A DNA stretch of 64,000 nt, taken from Actinospica robiniae DSM 44927 (GTDB taxonomy: Bacteria; Actinomycetota; Actinomycetes; Streptomycetales; Catenulisporaceae). Below the pieces are notes generated by a model that was not told the origin of the DNA, searched no databases, and saw only the letters and a program-made list of their open reading frames with translations. Of this stretch, positions 3,905 to 57,125 are shown piece after piece. Position numbers and translations under genes: made by a program. Positions within the stretch are counted from its first letter, which is position 1, and every line of letters starts with the position of its first letter. The stretch spans positions 9,468,154 to 9,532,153 of the forward strand of contig NZ_KI632511.1 of NCBI RefSeq assembly GCF_000504285.1. Reading direction: 5' to 3'.

Positions 3905-5185
3905 ATGCCTTCTTCCGGTGTACTTCCTCCTGATCTGACACCTTCTGCGCTCGCGGCGCCGTCGACTCCGCTGGGGTCGTTCGCCGCGAGTGCGGTGTCG
4001 TGGACGGCCTGGACGACGCTGATGGGGTTCGTCGGATTGACCGCGCTGGCGGTGCTCGCGGCGGGGCCGGCCGCTCGGCGGATCGGGCCGGAAGCGCTGG
4101 GTGCTGTGACCGCGCGGCTTTCCCGGGCCGCGCTGGTCGTGGGCGTGCTGGCGGTTCCGGCCGTGCTCAGCGATTTGGCGCAGAGTGCGTCCGACAATGG
4201 CGGCTATGACTATTCCGCAGCTTGGGATTCCTTGTACGACGGGACTAACGCAGGTCGGCTATCAGGGCTGGAAGTCGCCTTCATCCTGATCGGCGTGGCG
4301 CTGATAGCCCCGCTCGCGGTGCGCAGGGTCGCAGCCGGCCGGGTCGGCCGGTGGCTGCTGCCTTCCGCACTCGGCGCCGGCGCGATCGCGCTCGGCACGA
4401 CGAAGTTCCCCGACGCGGTGCCCACTGACTGGGGCCGGACCAGCTTCGAGACGCTGATGTGGATGCTGCACCTGCTCGGCGGCGGCGTCTGGATCGGCGG
4501 CCTGCTCGGCTTGGCGCTGCTCGCCCTGCCTGGCGCAGTCGCGCGGCAGGACAGCGCGGCGTTCTGGTCGGGCACGATCCGTCGCTTCTCCGCGGCCGCG
4601 ATGAGCTGCGTCGCCGCCATCGCCCTGTCCGGGCTGTTCCTTTACTGGGAGCACGTGGACGGCCCCTCGCAGCTGTTCACCACCATGTACGGTCGTGTAC
4701 TCGGCGTCAAGATCCTGCTTTTCGGCACGATGCTGCTGCTCGGCACGTTCAACCAGTTCTGGCTGCATCCGCGCATCGACGCGCTGCGCTCGGCCGGCGA
4801 CGAGCGTCCGCTGCGGGCGATCCTGCTCAAGCAGTTCCCCGCCGTCGTCGGCGCCGAGGCCGTCCTCGGTCTGGCAGTGCTCTTCGTCGCGCCGTTCCTG
4901 CACGGCTCCGCGCGCAACCAGGCTTACCAGGCCGGCCTTGCCGCACACGCTGCCACCGCCGCGAACGGGAAGCTGCCCAAGCTGGCGGCCAAGGTGCCGG
5001 ACGCCGCGACCTGGATGTGGGGCAGCGCGGAAACAATCGCCGTCATCGCTCTGATGATCATCGGCTACCGCGTCTCCGGCCGCATCGCCCGGCGTCGCGC
5101 CGCCGCACTCGCCGCTTCGGCTCCGCTCGGCGCGGAGTTCGAGGAGCAGGCCGCGGCCGTCGAACATGCGGGGAGGTTGATCTGA
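3905..5185 (+). CDS. CopD-domain integral membrane protein
   Basis: A 426-residue polytopic membrane protein with about eight hydrophobic segments. The C-terminal half carries the CopD-like domain, including MLHLLGGGVWIGGLLGLALL (about 188-207) and a conserved intramembrane His. CopD proteins are linked to copper import across the membrane, often with a CopC partner. No CopC gene is adjacent. The iron box just upstream suggests expression under iron limitation, so a role in iron or heme-linked metal handling should be considered. It is a single-gene unit followed by a riboswitch-led operon. Confidence 0.8.
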   Translation: MPSSGVLPPDLTPSALAAPSTPLGSFAASAVSWTAWTTLMGFVGLTALAVLAAGPAARRIGPEALGAVTARLSRAALVVGVLAVPAVLSDLAQSASDNGGYDYSAAWDSLYDGTNAGRLSGLEVAFILIGVALIAPLAVRRVAAGRVGRWLLPSALGAGAIALGTTKFPDAVPTDWGRTSFETLMWMLHLLGGGVWIGGLLGLALLALPGAVARQDSAAFWSGTIRRFSAAAMSCVAAIALSGLFLYWEHVDGPSQLFTTMYGRVLGVKILLFGTMLLLGTFNQFWLHPRIDALRSAGDERPLRAILLKQFPAVVGAEAVLGLAVLFVAPFLHGSARNQAYQAGLAAHAATAANGKLPKLAAKVPDAATWMWGSAETIAVIALMIIGYRVSGRIARRRAAALAASAPLGAEFEEQAAAVEHAGRLI

Positions 5186-5257: not shown

Positions 5258-5367
5258 GGCGCGTCTAGGGTTCCGCCGGCGAGTCGCGCCGGGCCTGGTC
5301 CGAGAGACGCAGGCGGAGCCCGACGGTTCCGTTCCACGGCGGGAGAAAAGCCCGGGAGGCCAGGTGA
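5258..5367 (+). promoter_or_regulatory. Guanidine-I (ykkC) riboswitch
   Basis: The conserved ykkC elements appear in order: CTAGGGTTCCG (5264-5274), TGGTCCGAGAGACGC (5296-5310), and CACGGCGGGAGAAAAGCCCG (about 5335-5354) followed by GGAGG. This class binds guanidinium. Downstream CTCCCGG (5396-5402) can pair with CCGGGAG (5351-5357) in the aptamer's last stem, which is a plausible switching hairpin. It precedes an APC permease and urea-amidolyase-associated genes, the classic context. Confidence 0.92.
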
Positions 5368-5590
5368 GCTCGGCCGTCCCCCCGGCCGGGCCCGGCTCCC
5401 GGAGTAGGCCGTGAGACCTCGATCAACAGCACCCTCTTCACCTTCGAACCACAGCGGTGACTTCGGTATCTCCAGTCACCCGAGCCACCCGAACCTCGCG
5501 CACTTCATCGGCCGGGCGAGGGTGGCGCCGCCCGGCCGCAATGCCCTGAGCTCACGCGGACGCGCGCAAACGCGCGGAAAGGCGGCAACC

Positions 5591-7141
5591 GTGTCCACCA
5601 CCTTGTCCGTCGTCGAGGACGAAAGCCTCGACGCGGCCGACCTGGCCGAGTTCGGATACCCGCAGCAGCTGCGGCGCGGACTGGGGCAGTATGCGTCCTT
5701 CGCCGCGGGCTTCTCCTTCGTCTCGATCCTGACCACCGTCTTCCAGCTCTTCTCCTTCGGCTACGGCTTCGGCGGGCCGGCCTTCTTCTGGACCTGGCCG
5801 ATGGTGTTCGCGGGCCAGTTCCTGGTCGCGCTCTGCTTCGCCGAGCTGGCCGCGCGCTATCCGATCTCAGGGTGCGTGTATCAGTGGTCTCGGCGCATGT
5901 CGACGGGGCTGCTCGGGCACTTCGCCGGGTGGACGATGCTGATCGGGCAGGTGGTGAGCGTCTCGGCGGCGGCCATCGCGCTGCAGGTGGTGCTGCCCTC
6001 GGTCTGGAGCGGATTCCAGCTCGTCGGCGGGGATACGGCGCTGACCAGTAAGACGGGCGCGACGAACGCCGTCCTGCTCGGCGCGGGCCTGATCGCGTTG
6101 ACCACCGTCGTCTCCTCGGTGGGAGTGAAACTCACGGCCCTGATCAACAGCGTCGGGGTCACCTGCGAGTTGGTCGGCGTGGCCGCGCTCGTGGTGCTGC
6201 TGTTCGCGCACTCCAACCGGAACCCGAGCGTGGTGCTGCACACGGACGGCGCGGCCGGGAGCGGTGGCAGTTCCTACCTCTGGCCGTTCCTCGTCTCCGC
6301 GCTGATGGCCGCGTATGTCATGTACGGCTTCGACAGTGCGGGGGAGTTGAGTGAGGAGACGCGTTCGCCCCGCACCACCGCGCCGAAGGCGATCCTCAAG
6401 GCCTTGGCGGTCTCCGGAATCGGCGGTGCCGCGCTGCTGCTCGGCGCGCTGATGGCCGCTCCTTCGCTGACGGACGGCCGGCTCGCCACCGAAGGGCTGC
6501 CTTACGTCGTGACCAGCCGCCTCGGTGACGGCCTCGGCCGCGCAGTGTTGGTGGACGTTGCGATAGCGATCTGCGTGTGCACGCTCGCGATTCAGACCGC
6601 GGCCTCGCGGCTGGCCTACTCGATGGCGCGCGACGGCAGCCTGCCCGGCGCCGCGCGGCTCTCCCGGGTGTCCCCGCGCACGGGCACTCCGGTCCTGCCG
6701 ACGGTGCTCATCGGTGGCGCGGCTCTCCTGATCCTCGGGGTGAACGTGGGGCAGGCGCAGTTGTTCACGGCGCTCACCAGCGTCGCGGTCGTGATCGTCT
6801 ACCTCGCCTATCTGCTGGTGACGCTGCCGATGCTGGTTCGGCGGCTGCGCGGGCAGGTGCCGGCGGGGGACGGGCGGTTCTCGCTGGGCCGCTTCGGCTT
6901 GCCGGTCAACGCGCTCGCGGTCGGCTACGGCCTGTTCATGGCGGTGAACCTGGCCTGGCCACGGCAGGCGGTCTACGACCCGGCGGGCGGGCACTGGTAC
7001 CTGCGCTACTTCGCGGTGCTGTTCTGCGCGGCCGTCGCCGTGTTCGGATACGCGGCTTACCTGGCGGCCCGGCGTTCGACCGCGACTGCGCGCGCGACGA
7101 CGCTCGCCGACGTGGCCGAGATTGCGGAGGCCGCCGCGTGA
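5591..7141 (+). CDS. APC-family amino acid/guanidine permease
   Basis: A 516-residue APC-superfamily transporter with about twelve membrane segments between residues 35 and 500. The open frame extends upstream to 5411, but that part is hydrophilic and overlaps the 3' side of the riboswitch leader. GTG at 5591, with GGAAAGG upstream, gives the normal family N-terminus (VSTTLSVVEDESLD). It is the first gene of a riboswitch-led operon and its TGA overlaps the next GTG (7138). Permeases in this position import guanidine or related compounds in other bacteria; here this is inference from context. Confidence 0.85.
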   Translation: MSTTLSVVEDESLDAADLAEFGYPQQLRRGLGQYASFAAGFSFVSILTTVFQLFSFGYGFGGPAFFWTWPMVFAGQFLVALCFAELAARYPISGCVYQWSRRMSTGLLGHFAGWTMLIGQVVSVSAAAIALQVVLPSVWSGFQLVGGDTALTSKTGATNAVLLGAGLIALTTVVSSVGVKLTALINSVGVTCELVGVAALVVLLFAHSNRNPSVVLHTDGAAGSGGSSYLWPFLVSALMAAYVMYGFDSAGELSEETRSPRTTAPKAILKALAVSGIGGAALLLGALMAAPSLTDGRLATEGLPYVVTSRLGDGLGRAVLVDVAIAICVCTLAIQTAASRLAYSMARDGSLPGAARLSRVSPRTGTPVLPTVLIGGAALLILGVNVGQAQLFTALTSVAVVIVYLAYLLVTLPMLVRRLRGQVPAGDGRFSLGRFGLPVNALAVGYGLFMAVNLAWPRQAVYDPAGGHWYLRYFAVLFCAAVAVFGYAAYLAARRSTATARATTLADVAEIAEAAA

Positions 7142-7794
7142 CCGGCTACGTGCTTGAAATGCCCGGCGCTGCGGCTGATTCGTTGCGGCTGCGGCGGCAC
7201 AGGACCCTGACTCTTCACTGCCTCGGACCGGGAACGAACGTCGCGGCTCTGATATATGCACTCGATGACAGGACCGAGCGGCTCAACGTTCCGGACACGC
7301 TCAAAGCCCAGATGTCCGCGAGCATCGCGGCTCCTATGGCGCTGATGTCCGACATGGGGCGCGCGCTGGCTTCCGTGACAGGTTCGAGTCTCGACTGGCA
7401 CGACGCGATCACCGGCCACGGTCTGCCGGGAGTCGACGGCGCGCGCGAGGGCCTGCTCGGCGAGCTCTGGAAGCACGGTCTCGGCGCCCGCGATCTGCAC
7501 GCCAACGTCAATTTCTTCAGCAAGGTCACCCCAGTCGGCGATCAGCGCGGGACTCTCGTCTACGAGCCCGGATACGCCACGGAGGGCGACTGGGTCACCC
7601 TGCGGGCCGAGATCGACCTGCTCGTCGTGCTGTCCACCGCGCGGCACCCGTTTGACCCCTCGACGTCGGGCGAACCGGCCGGAGTGCGGCTCGAGGTGGC
7701 CGAGGGCTCGGCACCGGGGCCCGACGATCCCAGCCGAAGCTTTCGGTCCGAGACCGCGCGCGCACTGGAACTGGCCGAGAGGAGCTACGCATGA
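7138..7794 (+). CDS. Urea amidolyase-associated DUF1989 protein (first of pair)
   Basis: A 218-residue DUF1989 protein of the kind found in guanidine-riboswitch operons. In characterised systems the paired proteins form carboxyguanidine deiminase (CgdAB), turning carboxyguanidine into allophanate and ammonia. The motif NVNFFSKV matches NINFFMNV in its partner. It lacks the CPQINNPCN Cys motif that the partner has, so it is probably the non-metal-binding subunit. The GTG start overlaps the permease stop (GTGA), and its own TGA overlaps the next ATG (7791). Tight coupling suggests the two chains are made in equal amounts. Confidence 0.85.
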   Translation: MTGYVLEMPGAAADSLRLRRHRTLTLHCLGPGTNVAALIYALDDRTERLNVPDTLKAQMSASIAAPMALMSDMGRALASVTGSSLDWHDAITGHGLPGVDGAREGLLGELWKHGLGARDLHANVNFFSKVTPVGDQRGTLVYEPGYATEGDWVTLRAEIDLLVVLSTARHPFDPSTSGEPAGVRLEVAEGSAPGPDDPSRSFRSETARALELAERSYA

Positions 7795-8408
7795 GCGACG
7801 TCTTCGAACTCGACGACGTGATCGGAGCCGGCGACGGCTGGATCGGCGAGATCCCGGCGGGCCACCTGCTGCGCATCACCGATCTCCACGGGAATCAGGC
7901 TGTAGATACGCTGTTGTACGACGCCCGCGACTACGCCGACCGCTACAGTGCGATCGACACGATCCGCGAACAGGGCGCCGTGTATCTGAGCACTGGTTCC
8001 GTGCTGCTGACCGGGAACGGCGAAGCGCTCGCCACGATCGTCGACGACACCTGCGGCCGTCACGACACGCTGGGCGGTGCGTGCGCGCAGGAGAGCAACG
8101 TCGTGCGCTACGGAGGCCACACCCGGTATCAGCCTTCTTGCCGCACCACGTTCCTGCGCAAGGCGCGGGAGTGGGGGCGGGGGCTGGAGAAGCGCGACCT
8201 CGGCCATAACATCAACTTCTTTATGAATGTGCCGCTGACCCCGGACGGCGGCCTCACGTTCGAGGACGGCGTCTCCGCACCCGGCAAGTACGTGGAACTG
8301 CGGATGGAACGCGACGTGCTGTTGCTCATCTCCAACTGCCCGCAGATCAACAATCCCTGCAACGGCTTCAACCCGACGCCGATCCGGCTGACCGGACGTC
8401 GGCCATGA
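7791..8408 (+). CDS. Urea amidolyase-associated DUF1989 protein (second of pair)
   Basis: A 205-residue DUF1989 protein with the conserved C-terminal motif SNCPQINNPCNGFNPTPIRL (about 183-202), whose Cys residues suit metal binding. NINFFMNVP lies at about 141-149. It is the likely catalytic partner of the preceding gene in a carboxyguanidine-deiminase-type complex. ATG at 7791 overlaps the previous stop, and its stop overlaps ATG 8405. Which chain corresponds to CgdA and which to CgdB I cannot say without alignment. Confidence 0.85.
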   Translation: MSDVFELDDVIGAGDGWIGEIPAGHLLRITDLHGNQAVDTLLYDARDYADRYSAIDTIREQGAVYLSTGSVLLTGNGEALATIVDDTCGRHDTLGGACAQESNVVRYGGHTRYQPSCRTTFLRKAREWGRGLEKRDLGHNINFFMNVPLTPDGGLTFEDGVSAPGKYVELRMERDVLLLISNCPQINNPCNGFNPTPIRLTGRRP

Positions 8409-10537
8409 CCTGGATGCTCGACGTCCTCGACCCCGGTGTGCAGACTTCGGTCCAGGACCTCACCGGCCGTCGCGGACTGTGGGGAGTCGGAGTGCCGCCG
8501 TCAGGGGCCTACGACGCCCTCTCGTTCGCCCTCGCGAACCTGGCCGTCGGCAACGATCCGGGGGCTGCCGGTCTCGAAGCGGTGCTGGTCGGGCCCACGT
8601 TGTGTTTCCGCGCCGGCGGCAATGAGGAGCGGCGGCACGTGCTCGCCGCCGTCGCAGGAGCCTGCCAAGGAGCTCAGCTGGACGGCCGTGCGGTACGTCC
8701 TGGCGAGCCGTTCGCCGCGTACGACGGCTCCGTGGTCACGTTCGGGCCCTGCGGTCCGGCCGGGCTGCGCGGATACCTCGCGGTACGCGGCGGGGTCGCG
8801 GTGCCGCGTGTGCTCGGTAGCCGGGCCGCCTTCCTGCTCGGCGGCTTCGGCGGCGGCGTCGGGCGTGCGTTGGCTGCGGATGACGCCCTGGGCGTCGGCC
8901 GGGAAGAGAACTGCGACGCGCCCGCCGTCCTCACCGCGATCGTGCCGACGCTCACCGACCGTTGGACCTTACGGGTGATCCCCGGCCCCCACGGCGCCCC
9001 GGACTACTTCACCGGTGACGCGCTGGCCGCGCTCTTCGCGGCCGAATGGGCGGTGGACCATCGCAGCGACCGCACCGGCATCCGCCTGGCCGGGCCACCC
9101 GTGCGTTTCGCCCGCGCGGACGGCGGCGAAGCCGGGCTGCACCCGTGCAACATCCACGACTCCGCCTATCCCGTCGGCGGCATCATGATCTCCGGCGACA
9201 CCCCGGTCATCGTCGGACCGGACGGGCCCAGCCTCGGCGGATTCGTCGTTCCGGCGGGAGTGATCCGGGCCGACCTGTGGAAGCTCGGCCAGTTGCGGCC
9301 CGGCGACCGCGTGCGGCTCGAGCCCGTCACCGCCGAGGCCGCGGCCGAAGCAAGAGACGAGCGACGGCGCATGCTCGCCGATCCGCGCGCCGCGGCCGCC
9401 GCGGTGATCTTCCCGCTGCCTGCCGAACCCGCGCCAGCGGCCGAGACACCGCAGACGCCGCAGACGCCGTCGGCGCGCAGCGCGACCTGGGACCGCCCGT
9501 CCCCGCTCCTGACCATCCCCGCCTCCGGTGCGCGGCCCGAACTGTCCGTCAGGTTCAGCGGCGACCATCACCTGCTGGTGGAGGCAGGCCCGGCTCGCTT
9601 GGACCTCACCGTACGGGCACGCATCCACCTGCTGCACCGCGAACTCGCCGCACGCGGGCTGCTCGGTGCGTCCGCCGGAGTCCCGGAGGACGTCGAGGGC
9701 GTCAGGTCTCTGCTGCTCGGCTTCGAGCCGCTGGCGGTCGATCCACGCGCGCTCGCCGAACGGGTGGGCGAGGCGTGGCTGGCGACTCCTGACCCCGCCG
9801 GCGTCGAGCTGCCGGTGCGCGAGGTGACGATGCCGATCTGCTTCGACGATCCCGGCGCGCACGAGGCGATGCACCGCTACCAGCGCGGCGTGCGCCCGGA
9901 CGCGCCGTGGTGCCCGGACAACGTCGAGTTCATTCGCCGGGTCAACGGCCTGCGCGACCGCGACGAGGTGTTCGAGATCGTACAGAAGGCGACGTACCTG
10001 GTCATCGGCCTCGGCGACGTCTACCTCGGCGCGCCCCTCGCGGTGCCGCTGGATCCGGCGCACCGCCTGGTGACCACGAAGTACGACCCGCCGCGCACCT
10101 GGACGCCGGAGAACGCGGTGGGCATCGGCGGCGCGTACCTGTGCGTCTACGGCATGGAAGGTCCCGGCGGTTACCAGCTCGTCGGGCGGACCGTCCCGGT
10201 GTGGCGCAAGCCCGGCGCCGACCGCGCGGACGGTGCCGGCGAGGCGGCGCCTTCGTGGCTGCTGCGGAGCTTCGACCTGCTCCGCTTCGAGCCCGTCGGG
10301 CACGACGAGCTGATGGAGCTGCGGGCTGCGATCGCCGACGGAAGCATCGGGCTGCGTATGCGCGAGACGACGCTCGACCTCGGCGCCCTGCCCGGGCCGG
10401 AGACGCCGCAGCCCCCGGAGACCGCGGAGTTCATCCGGCGGCGCGAGGGCGCCTTCGCCGCGGAACGCGCCCGCTGGGCCGAAGCGGCGGCGGCCAAGGC
10501 ACAACAGAACAAGGCACAGCAGAACAGAGGAGCCTGA
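8405..10537 (+). CDS. Carboxyltransferase-only urea/guanidine carboxylase homologue (AHS2-AHS1)
   Basis: A 710-residue protein with an AHS2/KipA-like domain (about 1-310, GVQTSVQDLTGRRGLWGVGV), a low-complexity linker (about 315-365), then an AHS1/KipI-like domain (about 375-620, EVTMPICFDDPGAHEAMHRY). These two form the carboxyltransferase half of urea/guanidine carboxylase, which is normally about 1,200 residues. Missing are the N-terminal biotin carboxylase with its ATP-grasp and the C-terminal biotin carrier (no AMKM). The protein ends in an Ala/Lys/Gln-rich tail just where the carrier would begin. It also resembles a fused PxpC-PxpB (5-oxoprolinase) pair, but no PxpA gene is nearby. Confidence 0.85.
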   Translation: MTWMLDVLDPGVQTSVQDLTGRRGLWGVGVPPSGAYDALSFALANLAVGNDPGAAGLEAVLVGPTLCFRAGGNEERRHVLAAVAGACQGAQLDGRAVRPGEPFAAYDGSVVTFGPCGPAGLRGYLAVRGGVAVPRVLGSRAAFLLGGFGGGVGRALAADDALGVGREENCDAPAVLTAIVPTLTDRWTLRVIPGPHGAPDYFTGDALAALFAAEWAVDHRSDRTGIRLAGPPVRFARADGGEAGLHPCNIHDSAYPVGGIMISGDTPVIVGPDGPSLGGFVVPAGVIRADLWKLGQLRPGDRVRLEPVTAEAAAEARDERRRMLADPRAAAAAVIFPLPAEPAPAAETPQTPQTPSARSATWDRPSPLLTIPASGARPELSVRFSGDHHLLVEAGPARLDLTVRARIHLLHRELAARGLLGASAGVPEDVEGVRSLLLGFEPLAVDPRALAERVGEAWLATPDPAGVELPVREVTMPICFDDPGAHEAMHRYQRGVRPDAPWCPDNVEFIRRVNGLRDRDEVFEIVQKATYLVIGLGDVYLGAPLAVPLDPAHRLVTTKYDPPRTWTPENAVGIGGAYLCVYGMEGPGGYQLVGRTVPVWRKPGADRADGAGEAAPSWLLRSFDLLRFEPVGHDELMELRAAIADGSIGLRMRETTLDLGALPGPETPQPPETAEFIRRREGAFAAERARWAEAAAAKAQQNKAQQNRGA

Positions 10538-10538
10538 G

Positions 10539-12227
10539 ATGGAAGAGACGTCCGGCACCGAATGGATCCGGCGCTTCACCGAGGAGGAGTCCGCCCGATT
10601 CGTCGCTCGGGAGCTCACTCGAACGGACGAAGCGGGCGATCTTCCCTTGGCGGGCCTCTCGTTCGCCATCAAGGACAACATCGACATCGCCGGCGTTCCC
10701 ACGACAGCCGCGTTCCGCGAGCGCGCCGGCAGACCGGCCGTTGGCACGGCCACCGCCGTACGACGCCTGATCCAGGCCGGTGCCGTGCCCGCCGGGAAGA
10801 CGAACCTCGACCAGTTCGCCACCGGGCTCGTCGGCACGCGCAGCCCCTACGGCGCCTGCCACGCCGCCGGCCATCCGACGCACGTCTCCGGCGGAAGCAG
10901 CTCCGGAAGCGCCGTGGCGGTCGCCTCCGGCCAGGTCGACCTCGCGCTGGGCACCGACACGGCTGGCTCAGGGCGGGTTCCGGCCGCGTTCAACGGGATC
11001 GTCGGTCTCAAGCCCTCGCGTGGTCTGATCTCCACCACCGGTGTCGTCCCGGCCTGCCGTTCCCTCGACTGCGTCAGCATCTTCACTCGTTCGGTCGATC
11101 GTGCTCGCGCAGCGTTCCGGGCAGTCGCCGCGTTCGATCCCGCCGACCCCTACTCCCGCCGGATGCCGCCACATCGCCCGCACCTCGCCGCCACGCCCGG
11201 CGTCATCGCGGTCCCCGCCGGCGCGCTCGACCTGGACGCCGAGCACCGGACGGCATGGGACGCGGCGCTCCGGCATGCGCGAGAGGTGGCCGACTACCTC
11301 GTCGAGGTCGACATCGAGCCCTTCCTCGAAGCCGCGCGCCTGCTTTACCAAGGGCCGTGGCTCGCCGAACGCTGGCACGCGATCGCCCCGATACTGGGGG
11401 AGCCGGGCCTCGACCACCCAGACCTCGACCCGACCGTGCGACGCGTCCTGGCGGGCGCGGAGGCGATCGGCGGGGCCGCCACGTTCGCAGGCTTCGACGA
11501 GCTCGCGCGGTTGAGGCGCGCAACCGAGCACGTCTGGGACGTAGCCGACGCGCTCCTGCTGCCGGTCACCCCGGGCCACCCGACCCTCGCCGAGGTCGCC
11601 GCCGACCCGGTCGGGGTCAATGGCCGGCTCGGCACCTATACGAACTTTGTGAACCTGCTCGATCTGTGTGCCATCGCCGTCCCGGCCGGCCGACGCGCGG
11701 ACGGGCTGCCGTTCGGCGTTCAACTGATCGGGCCGACGTTCGCGGACGAGCAGCTGCTCGACCTGGCCGCGGCCTGGACCGGTGAGGGCCGCGCCACCCC
11801 CGAGAGCCCGCTGCCCGCCGGGTTCACCCGCATCGCCGTCGTCGGCGCCCACCTGTCCGGGCTGCCGCTGAACAGCCAGCTGCTCACGCTTGGCGCCCAA
11901 CTGATCCGTCGCACCAGGACCGCGCCGGACTACCGCCTCTACCGCATCCCCGACACCGAGCCGCCGCGCCCCGGCCTCTATCCGATCGGTGAGGCGGAGC
12001 CACCAGAAGACGGCCGGGGTATCCCGGCTGAGATCTGGCAGCTGACACAGCAGTCGGCCGCCGCCCTGCTGGGGACCGTACCGCCGCCGCTCGGGTTCGC
12101 CGCCGTCACCATGGCCGACGGTACCCGCGTCCTCGGTTTCATCGCCCACGGCCCGGTTCCCGCCGGCGCCGTGGACGTGACCGGCCTCGGCGGCTGGCGC
12201 CCGTACCTTGATACGGTAGCCAGTTGA
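10539..12227 (+). CDS. Allophanate hydrolase (amidase signature family)
   Basis: A 562-residue enzyme. The amidase-signature domain (about 1-430) carries the Ser-cisSer-Lys triad: Lys in FAIKDNIDIAG (about 44), Ser residues in GGSSSGSAVAVASG (about 113) and the nucleophile in GTDTAGSGRVPAAF (about 137). The C-terminal 120 residues match the extra domain of allophanate hydrolases (AtzF/DUR1 type). The enzyme converts allophanate to ammonia and CO2, the last step after guanidine carboxylase and carboxyguanidine deiminase. It starts one base after the previous stop and closes the operon. Confidence 0.9.
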   Translation: MEETSGTEWIRRFTEEESARFVARELTRTDEAGDLPLAGLSFAIKDNIDIAGVPTTAAFRERAGRPAVGTATAVRRLIQAGAVPAGKTNLDQFATGLVGTRSPYGACHAAGHPTHVSGGSSSGSAVAVASGQVDLALGTDTAGSGRVPAAFNGIVGLKPSRGLISTTGVVPACRSLDCVSIFTRSVDRARAAFRAVAAFDPADPYSRRMPPHRPHLAATPGVIAVPAGALDLDAEHRTAWDAALRHAREVADYLVEVDIEPFLEAARLLYQGPWLAERWHAIAPILGEPGLDHPDLDPTVRRVLAGAEAIGGAATFAGFDELARLRRATEHVWDVADALLLPVTPGHPTLAEVAADPVGVNGRLGTYTNFVNLLDLCAIAVPAGRRADGLPFGVQLIGPTFADEQLLDLAAAWTGEGRATPESPLPAGFTRIAVVGAHLSGLPLNSQLLTLGAQLIRRTRTAPDYRLYRIPDTEPPRPGLYPIGEAEPPEDGRGIPAEIWQLTQQSAAALLGTVPPPLGFAAVTMADGTRVLGFIAHGPVPAGAVDVTGLGGWRPYLDTVAS

Positions 12228-56823: not shown

Positions 56824-56842
56824 GACCTGCGGTAACGCTGGT

Positions 56843-56913
56843 GGACGATACTGGGATTGAACCAGTGACCTCTTCCGTGTCAGGGAAGCGCTCTCCCGCT
56901 GAGCTAATCGTCC
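56843..56913 (-). tRNA. tRNA-Val (anticodon GAC)
   Basis: A 71-nt cloverleaf: acceptor GGACGAT/ATCGTCC, anticodon stem-loop CTTCC-CTGACAC-GGAAG with GAC, T-loop TTCAATC. No encoded CCA. The 3' end faces the integrase remnant and may have served as an attachment site. Confidence 0.95.
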
Positions 56914-56942
56914 TCGAGACTCCCCCGATGAACGGGGAAAGA

Positions 56943-57012
56943 GGTGGAGACGGGATTTGAACCCGTGTACACGGCTTTGCAGGCCGTTGCCTCGCCTCTC
57001 GGCCACTCCACC
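56943..57012 (-). tRNA. tRNA-Cys (anticodon GCA)
   Basis: A 70-nt cloverleaf: acceptor GGTGGAG/CTCCACC, anticodon stem-loop ACGGC-CTGCAAA-GCCGT with GCA, T-loop TTCAAAT. It is the middle gene of the three-tRNA operon. Confidence 0.95.
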
Positions 57013-57054
57013 GCGCTATGGTGGCGGTACACCCAGGGGCAAGCCCCCACGCGA

Positions 57055-57125
57055 GCGGACGACGGGATTCGAACCCGCGACCCTCACCTTGGCAAGGTGA
57101 TGCTCTACCACTGAGCCACGTCCGC
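57055..57125 (-). tRNA. tRNA-Gly (anticodon GCC)
   Basis: A 71-nt cloverleaf: acceptor GCGGACG/CGTCCGC, anticodon loop CTTGCCAAG with GCC, T-loop TTCGAAT. It is the first gene of the Gly-Cys-Val cluster, an arrangement common in actinobacteria. Confidence 0.95.

Follow-up and report, generated by a model that had tools for sequence, protein, structure and literature searches.

The window analysed here, a stretch of 64,000 nucleotides from the soil actinobacterium Actinospica robiniae DSM 44927 (contig NZ_KI632511.1, positions 9,468,154 to 9,532,153), carries a guanidine-I (ykkC) riboswitch followed by five overlapping or abutting genes on the + strand, for a permease, CgdA, CgdB, a carboxylase and an allophanate hydrolase. 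The carboxylase gene (8405-10537, +; ATG start; 710 residues) encodes a relative of the guanidine/urea carboxylases that consists of the carboxyltransferase (CT) part, AHS2-AHS1, and has neither the biotin carboxylase (BC) nor the biotin carboxyl carrier protein (BCCP) domain. We propose, with a probability of about 0.55, that this CT-only protein takes carboxybiotin in trans from an acyl-CoA carboxylase alpha subunit (AccA) and serves a nitrogen-assimilation operon under the guanidine riboswitch. The pathway would run from import through carboxylation and deimination by CgdAB to allophanate hydrolysis, under guanidine-I riboswitch control. A housekeeping alpha subunit of the AccA/AccA3 type, with BC and BCCP in one chain, would make carboxybiotin from ATP and bicarbonate, its carrier arm would visit the CT-only protein and, with Lys559 as general base, the carboxyl group would pass to a guanidino substrate. 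This substrate would most likely be guanidine, bound in a remodelled pocket (Met261, with Asp561 and Arg220 unlike nearly all full-length enzymes), or possibly a related guanidino compound. We base this proposal on the catalytic CT residues being kept, on no dedicated BC being found in a partial census, on the presence of an AccA-type alpha and on the precedent of the PDB entry 9yx5.

Domain architecture and conservation of the short carboxylase

Against the TIGR02712 model, the window protein aligned only over positions 448-1121 of 1201, with 720 bits for a cut-off of 1303.85, and the Pfam domains found were CT_A_B and CT_C_D only, the BC (about positions 1-447 of the model) and the BCCP (about 1122-1201) being absent, as the sequence-only reading had described. 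All five CT-only proteins scanned fell under the same cut-off. A separate full-length guanidine carboxylase, considered in that reading, is not found in the genome, where the two CT_A_B genes are the window's and one beside PxpB.

The AlphaFold2 model of the protein, built on 62 sequences, had a predicted local distance difference test score (pLDDT) of 83.4; a version built on 9 sequences, with a pLDDT of 63.7, was discarded as too poor. The model superposed on the CT domain of Kluyveromyces lactis urea carboxylase with a Z of 34.2 and a root-mean-square deviation of 2.7 over 618 residues, while the next-best PDB chains after the two K. lactis entries were Pxp-like, with Z of at most 23.9. The window protein resembles Gca and urea carboxylase (TIGR02712; 3va7/5i8i) over the CT domain from end to end, with 34% identity to K. 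lactis, and shares with them the general base Lys, the equivalent of Asp1584 and an operon with CgdA, CgdB, AtzF and the guanidine-I riboswitch. It differs from them by the missing BC and BCCP (720 bits against a cut-off of 1304), by a Met at the Asp/Asn specificity position and by an Asp in place of Asn two residues past the base. Residues 242-258 and 271-279, which flank Met261, have a pLDDT below 50, so that the pocket is poorly modelled.

The domains found are those of a fused 5-oxoprolinase PxpCB, and the NF045499 (PxpC) model does match, with 137.8 bits, far under its cut-off of 500. TIGR00370 gave 32.1 bits for a cut-off of 145.55, the score of 720 bits belongs to TIGR02712, and the residues typical of Pxp are absent. 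The genome has a separate PxpB/PxpC pair at 1.07 Mb and its single PxpA match at 0.95 Mb (950 kb), far from the window. An identity as PxpCB, which had been raised from the sequence alone, is thus extremely improbable. PxpBC, KipI-KipA and MSMEG_0435-0436 (3mml, 9yx5) share with the window protein the AHS1/AHS2 fold without BC or BCCP; unlike it, these PxpBC-type systems are made of separate chains, and the seven Pxp sequences compared carry Arg where the window protein has its base Lys, and Gln at the specificity position.

The short gene is also present in Actinospica durhamensis (82% identity over 722 columns, among 60 relatives), with the same start and with the same gene order, riboswitch included. 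In a third genome of the genus (G002) the contig ends 75 residues into the CT gene, after the riboswitch, the permease, CgdA and CgdB. The metagenome-assembled genome (MAG) Frankiales RYN_109 (L052) has the riboswitch, CgdA, CgdB, the CT-only gene and AtzF without the permease, its CT protein being 57% identical over 690 positions. Related strains thus keep the short form behind the same riboswitch, the check that the sequence-only reading had proposed. The ratios of nonsynonymous to synonymous substitutions (dN/dS) between the window and A. durhamensis are 0.17 for the permease, 0.18 for CgdA, 0.15 for CgdB, 0.20 for the CT gene and 0.22 for AtzF. The short frame is not an assembly artefact, because other genomes have it too, and its clean ATG at 8405, overlapping the end of CgdB at 8408, is shared with A. 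durhamensis; judged from these comparisons, the short carboxylase is a conserved form and no recent truncation, in agreement with what had been read from the sequence. Among the best 80 of 370 relatives, whose loci were kept, only L051 and L052 are CT-only. BC and BCCP are both seen in the remaining 78, apart from two cut loci: L053 has the BC but is cut downstream, and L107 has the BCCP but is cut upstream.

The riboswitch aptamer (RF00442; 5254-5360, +) scored 82.8 bits (E 3e-13) for a gathering score of 63, and it is the only guanidine-I match in the whole 9.92 Mb genome. On this match the aptamer is predicted to be a guanidine sensor controlling the operon. The riboswitch of the same operon scored 75.2 bits in A. 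durhamensis, 73.0 in the Frankiales MAG, 68.3 in G002, 80.2 in G140 and 81.6 in G074.

Active-site residues and the substrate

Residues were numbered from an alignment with K. lactis UA and counted over 110 full-length sequences, near-copies included, only those of 600-700 residues with both BC and BCCP having been kept. In the part of PMC11410670 available, guanidine carboxylases are recognised by Asp at the equivalents of K. lactis positions 1330 and 1584, and in that of PMC5770610, Lys1605 is the likely general base. The window protein has Asp538 (codon 10016-10018, +) at the 1584 equivalent and Lys559 (codon 10079-10081, +), the likely general base of carboxyl transfer, at the 1605 equivalent, but Met261 (codon 9185-9187, +) at the 1330 equivalent, where guanidine carboxylases have Asp and urea carboxylases Asn. 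Among the full-length sequences this specificity position is Asp in 106 and Asn in 4, and the CT-only proteins fall into Asp (12/12), Met (7/7) and Ile (2/2) types; G002 is cut before the position and stands outside the Met-type count there. The seven Pxp sequences all have Gln.

Asp538 and Lys559 are kept in 110/110 full-length sequences, in 12/12 Asp-type, in 5/5 complete Met-type and in 2/2 Ile-type proteins, that is, in all 19 complete operon-borne CT-only forms, whereas the Pxp sequences have Arg at the position of Lys559 and a gap at that of Asp538 (7/7). Two residues past the base, Asp561 of the window protein is Asp in the 5 complete Met-type proteins, while the position is Asn in 110/110 full-length and 12/12 Asp-type sequences and also in the Ile type. 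Arg220 is Arg in 6/7 Met-type sequences and Asn in 107/110 full-length ones. Over the 201 columns that are at least 97% identical in the full-length sequences, the Asp-type CT-only proteins depart at 19 and the Met-type at 48.

These substitutions bear on the substrate. A CT-only enzyme with its carrier in trans might act not on guanidine but on an alkylated or larger guanidino compound, or on another amide, guanidine being then the signal or the product. The specificity position argues for it, being Met 7/7 and Ile 2/2 against Asp 106 and Asn 4 of the 110 full-length sequences, and so does CgdA, which has diverged too (45-71% identity to the window's inside the Met/Ile group, 28-37% for DUF1989 genes outside it). 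However, 6 of the 10 Met/Ile-group loci (window, A. durhamensis, G002, the Frankiales MAG, G140 and G074) have a guanidine-I aptamer at the gathering score in front of the operon, CgdB and AtzF are conventional, and in the Met type, though not in the Ile type, Asp561 may make up for the charge that was lost. We consider a substrate other than guanidine possible but doubtful. The scan at the gathering score gave no riboswitch in the remaining Met/Ile-group loci (G080, G217, G525 and G759), in any of the 12 Asp-type CT-only loci, or at the five full-length loci scanned (L047, L048, L176, L177 and L267).

That two domains and the diagnostic Asp are gone could also mean a dead carboxylase in a decaying operon, or a protein kept as scaffold or regulator, and a stand-alone relative in G508 has neither Lys559 nor Asp538, in a genome without a Biotin_carb_C match. 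Against this stand the dN/dS of the CT gene, the invariant active-site blocks and the occurrence of the same operon in several families, which make a dead or scaffold protein quite improbable.

The G508 relative (L266:7398-9359, +) has Arg for the base Lys and Glu for Asp1584, and the genome, 94% complete, gave no Biotin_carb_C match. It was dropped as proof of biotin independence, since neither Lys559 nor Asp538 is left in the protein and no Cgd or AtzF gene adjoins it.

The proposed biotin partner

The A. robiniae genome has five BC genes, none of them inside the window. One is part of a 2107-codon frame extending beyond the BC and the carrier, two stand beside a CT-beta-like gene, and the other two are AccA-type alphas, with BC and BCCP in one chain, mutually 99.3% identical (L040:6828-8618, -, and L041:6547-8574, -, about 6.65 Mb apart). 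Because the other BC genes of this genome are committed and none dedicated was found, an AccA-type alpha is the candidate partner. The sequence-only reading had proposed a search for a riboswitch-linked or orphan BC-carrier gene: AccA-type alphas are present, and the only guanidine-I match of the genome is in the window, where no BC gene lies. A. durhamensis has five BC genes as well, with counterparts of the BC gene types of A. robiniae, among them one AccA-type alpha like the 99.3% pair, plus a further alpha (C99).

No dedicated BC partner was found in the 5-19 kb stretches around the CT-only genes, nor in a partial census of BC genes. In one genus (g8), the six CT-only genomes have 4-5 BC genes and three genomes without a family match have 4, 5 and 4; G365, a genome with a full-length enzyme, has a counterpart to each of the four BC genes in G207, G062 and G351. 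Of the two BC genes of G525, a single-contig genome of another class, one adjoins a CT-beta-like gene. The only BC in the stretches around the CT-only genes is that of L173, in a gene that resembles pyruvate carboxylase in length and arrangement of domains and whose end lies some 2 kb ahead of CgdA; it was taken as chance because no BC lies near the same-genus operons L167, L169, L170, L171 and L174. Frames of 81 residues with a biotin/lipoyl domain, candidates for a free carrier, were found in G207 and G062, and a short biotin/lipoyl-domain match resembling them lies in the A. robiniae genome (G000:C1:4691263-4691451).

According to its title, the PDB entry 9yx5 shows the long-chain acyl-CoA carboxylase (AccA3 complex) of Mycobacterium smegmatis in association with MSMEG_0435-0436, which are an AHS2/AHS1 pair, and the best PDB match of the A. 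robiniae AccA is the alpha3 chain of this entry (E 5e-262). By analogy, it is plausible that the CT-only protein docks on an AccA complex. The actinobacterial acyl-CoA carboxylases resemble the proposed arrangement, with one AccA alpha for several betas and one BC-BCCP chain for several CT subunits; in the part of PMC13118682 available, one alpha of Streptomyces coelicolor serves two beta/epsilon sets, and thus two carboxylases. If the AccA proposal is true, nitrogen scavenging may draw on the biotin arm of fatty-acid synthesis as well, and this would suggest why an AHS1/AHS2 pair sits on the mycobacterial acyl-CoA carboxylase. The CT of acyl-CoA carboxylases differs from the window protein in that it belongs to the acyl-CoA carboxyltransferase family and not to AHS1/AHS2. 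We know of no Cgd genes or riboswitch with the PxpBC, KipI-KipA or MSMEG_0435-0436 systems.

Several points weigh against AccA as partner and guanidine as substrate. Since fatty-acid synthesis uses AccA-type alphas in any case, finding them proves little; MSMEG_0435-0436 is PxpCB-like and not a CT-only protein. The alpha C99 of A. durhamensis is without close counterpart in the window's genome, and the AccA-type alphas of G525 and G759 are only 45-48% identical to the A. robiniae AccA. For G344 (7), G302 (7), G386 (8), G089 (6) and for G170, G189, G405, G198 and G279 (5 each) the census covers the number of BC genes only, and that of G140 covers 3 of its 5 BC genes. Met261 lies outside the published criterion for guanidine carboxylases, and Asp561 and Arg220 could stand for a new chemistry. 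The supply of BC and carrier by another locus, for which the sequence-only reading had named the acyl-CoA carboxylase A subunit, is nevertheless the best supported explanation, on circumstantial grounds.

Phylogeny and distribution of the BC-less forms

A biotin-independent variant, the second possibility drawn from the sequence alone, would have the CT-only protein itself use ATP for carboxylation or activation, like the 5-oxoprolinase PxpABC, which is ATP-dependent and biotin-free. The missing BC and BCCP fit with it, and a first PxpBC-rooted tree placed the Met type outside all full-length enzymes. After four sequences were added and eight dropped, the Met type joined the Ile type in a single group (83/93), and among the full-length sequences the root did not resolve; CT-only as the ancestral form was dropped, the outside position of the Met type having been lost with this exchange. 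Lys559 and Asp538, kept in the 19 complete operon-borne CT-only proteins and absent from 7/7 PxpBC, also argue against biotin independence, and the genome's sole PxpA match lies far from the operon. We keep this variant as a rival, an unlikely one next to the use of AccA in trans.

In a tree of 50 CT sequences, the 12 Asp-type CT-only proteins, all of one family (f6) and of Mycobacteriales type, grouped together (100/99) inside the full-length actinobacterial enzymes, and six Met-type sequences grouped at 100/100, with the partial L175 adjacent. The BC-less forms are thus placed by these trees at two separate positions, with no order of states implied.

Of the 394 sampled genomes of the class, 44 matched the AHS2 half (E 1e-60 or better), and 17 of these 44 carriers, the window's included, have the BC-less form; of the 20 regions examined, 16 were picked because of a short frame or a high identity, and four served as full-length controls. 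Five genomes are of the Met type (the window's, G140, G080, G074 and G217), the call for G080 and G217, which are cut on the 3' side, covering the upstream side only. Twelve are of the Asp type (G344, G170, G089, G386, G405, G189, G207, G198, G062, G302, G351 and G279), and G089 and G386 hold a full-length gene besides. Among the remaining 27 carriers, 21 have BC and BCCP, and G095, G183, G241, G331, G373 and G406 were scored full-length from the frame size alone (1128-1569 residues). A sample of the phylum gave 16 matches in 396 genomes, several overlapping the class sample, and added G680 (full-length), the Ile-type CT-only genomes G525 and G759 and the degenerate G508. In G525 and G759, both of another class of the phylum, the order is permease, CgdA, CgdB, CT-only gene (L264:7528-9447, +, and L265:5166-7121, +) and AtzF, and the permease, at about 30% identity, is more distant. 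That Met replaces the guanidine-diagnostic Asp, and that CT-only forms are common in Actinomycetota and stand at two places of the tree, had escaped the sequence-only reading.

The f6 carboxylases (12 loci, and also a gene start in Tsukamurella) resemble the window protein in being CT-only directly after CgdB, with a permease or AtzF nearby in most. They differ from it by Asp at the specificity position, by the lack of a guanidine-I riboswitch (0/12) and by a separate position in the tree, and a TetR-family gene adjoins the operon in Tsukamurella. The record of Tsukamurella tyrosinosolvens, NZ_LR134452.1, contains a TetR-type gene, a permease, UAAP1, UAAP2 and the start of a CT-only-like gene, where it ends. 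In the text available of PMC4222082 and PMC4617892, msmeg_2184-2189 of M. smegmatis comprises a permease, two unknown frames, a 'urea amidolyase' and an allophanate hydrolase, is induced by nitrogen starvation under GlnR and AmtR, and is given with no mention of missing domains. Judged from these gene descriptions, it is likely the equivalent of the f6-type CT-only operon.

In G089, an Asp-type CT-only gene lies beside CgdB (L165), and another locus (L176) has AtzF and a full-length carboxylase of the Asn type, which is urea-like. The pair would be in line with separate urea and guanidine roles.

Descriptions of urea/guanidine carboxylase give it as a biotin enzyme of a single chain, from which the 17 BC-less forms among 44 carriers depart. 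They would mean that annotation with TIGR02712 overlooks many possible guanidine degraders, and that the published Asp criterion for guanidine carboxylases leaves out one riboswitch-controlled branch. In the literature searched by title and start of abstract, a scope that leaves outside the founding carboxyguanidine deiminase and KlUC-structure papers, no guanidine/urea carboxylase without BC and BCCP was found. A protein search of plasmids gave 267 records, with none at 60% identity or more among the matches listed (25 of 267), and a DNA search with an Asp-type gene matched 262 records (30 of 262 listed). It is tempting, if improbable as a whole, to read these data as Actinobacteria having reached a CT-only guanidine carboxylase at least twice, with a Met/Ile group, partly riboswitch-led, whose pocket is re-specified and which has no biotin enzyme of its own, being either biotin-independent or plugged into the fatty-acid carboxylase.

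The other genes of the operon and the surroundings

The permease, of the APC type found with urea/guanidine carboxylase systems (5591-7141, +), matched TIGR03428 with 708.1 bits (E 5.6e-213), below the cut-off of 740.45; its best start, by eye and by alignment with A. durhamensis, is the GTG at 5591 and not the 5411 of the open reading frame finder. The CgdA-like DUF1989 protein (UAAP1; 7138-7794, +), with a GTG start overlapping the permease stop, is divergent (PF09347 105.5 bits; TIGR03425 173.8 bits for a cut-off of 205.95), and the CgdB-like one (UAAP2; 7791-8408, +) matched TIGR03424 with 296 bits, above the cut-off. The cysteines of CgdB in the GAC, SNCPQ and NPCN motifs are conserved in 23/23 aligned loci. 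CgdA has strongly diverged in the Met/Ile group and CgdB has not; the role of CgdA may have changed there.

The allophanate hydrolase AtzF (amidase and AH_C; 10539-12227, +) matched TIGR02713 with 641.8 bits, above the cut-off, and contains the motifs IKDNID, GGSSSGS and GTDTAGS, which we take to bear the catalytic Lys-Ser-Ser. CgdA, CgdB, AtzF and the guanidine riboswitch, the marks of a guanidine carboxylase pathway, are thus all present, CgdA under its NCBIfam cut-off, and the operon layout read from the sequence alone was borne out by these family matches together with RF00442. The A. robiniae genome also has a urease alpha gene, so that urea can be handled without a urea carboxylase.

Directly 5' of the riboswitch, on the same strand, lies a gene for a CopD-domain membrane protein (3905-5185), and three tRNA genes are clustered at 56842-57125 on the - strand of the window.

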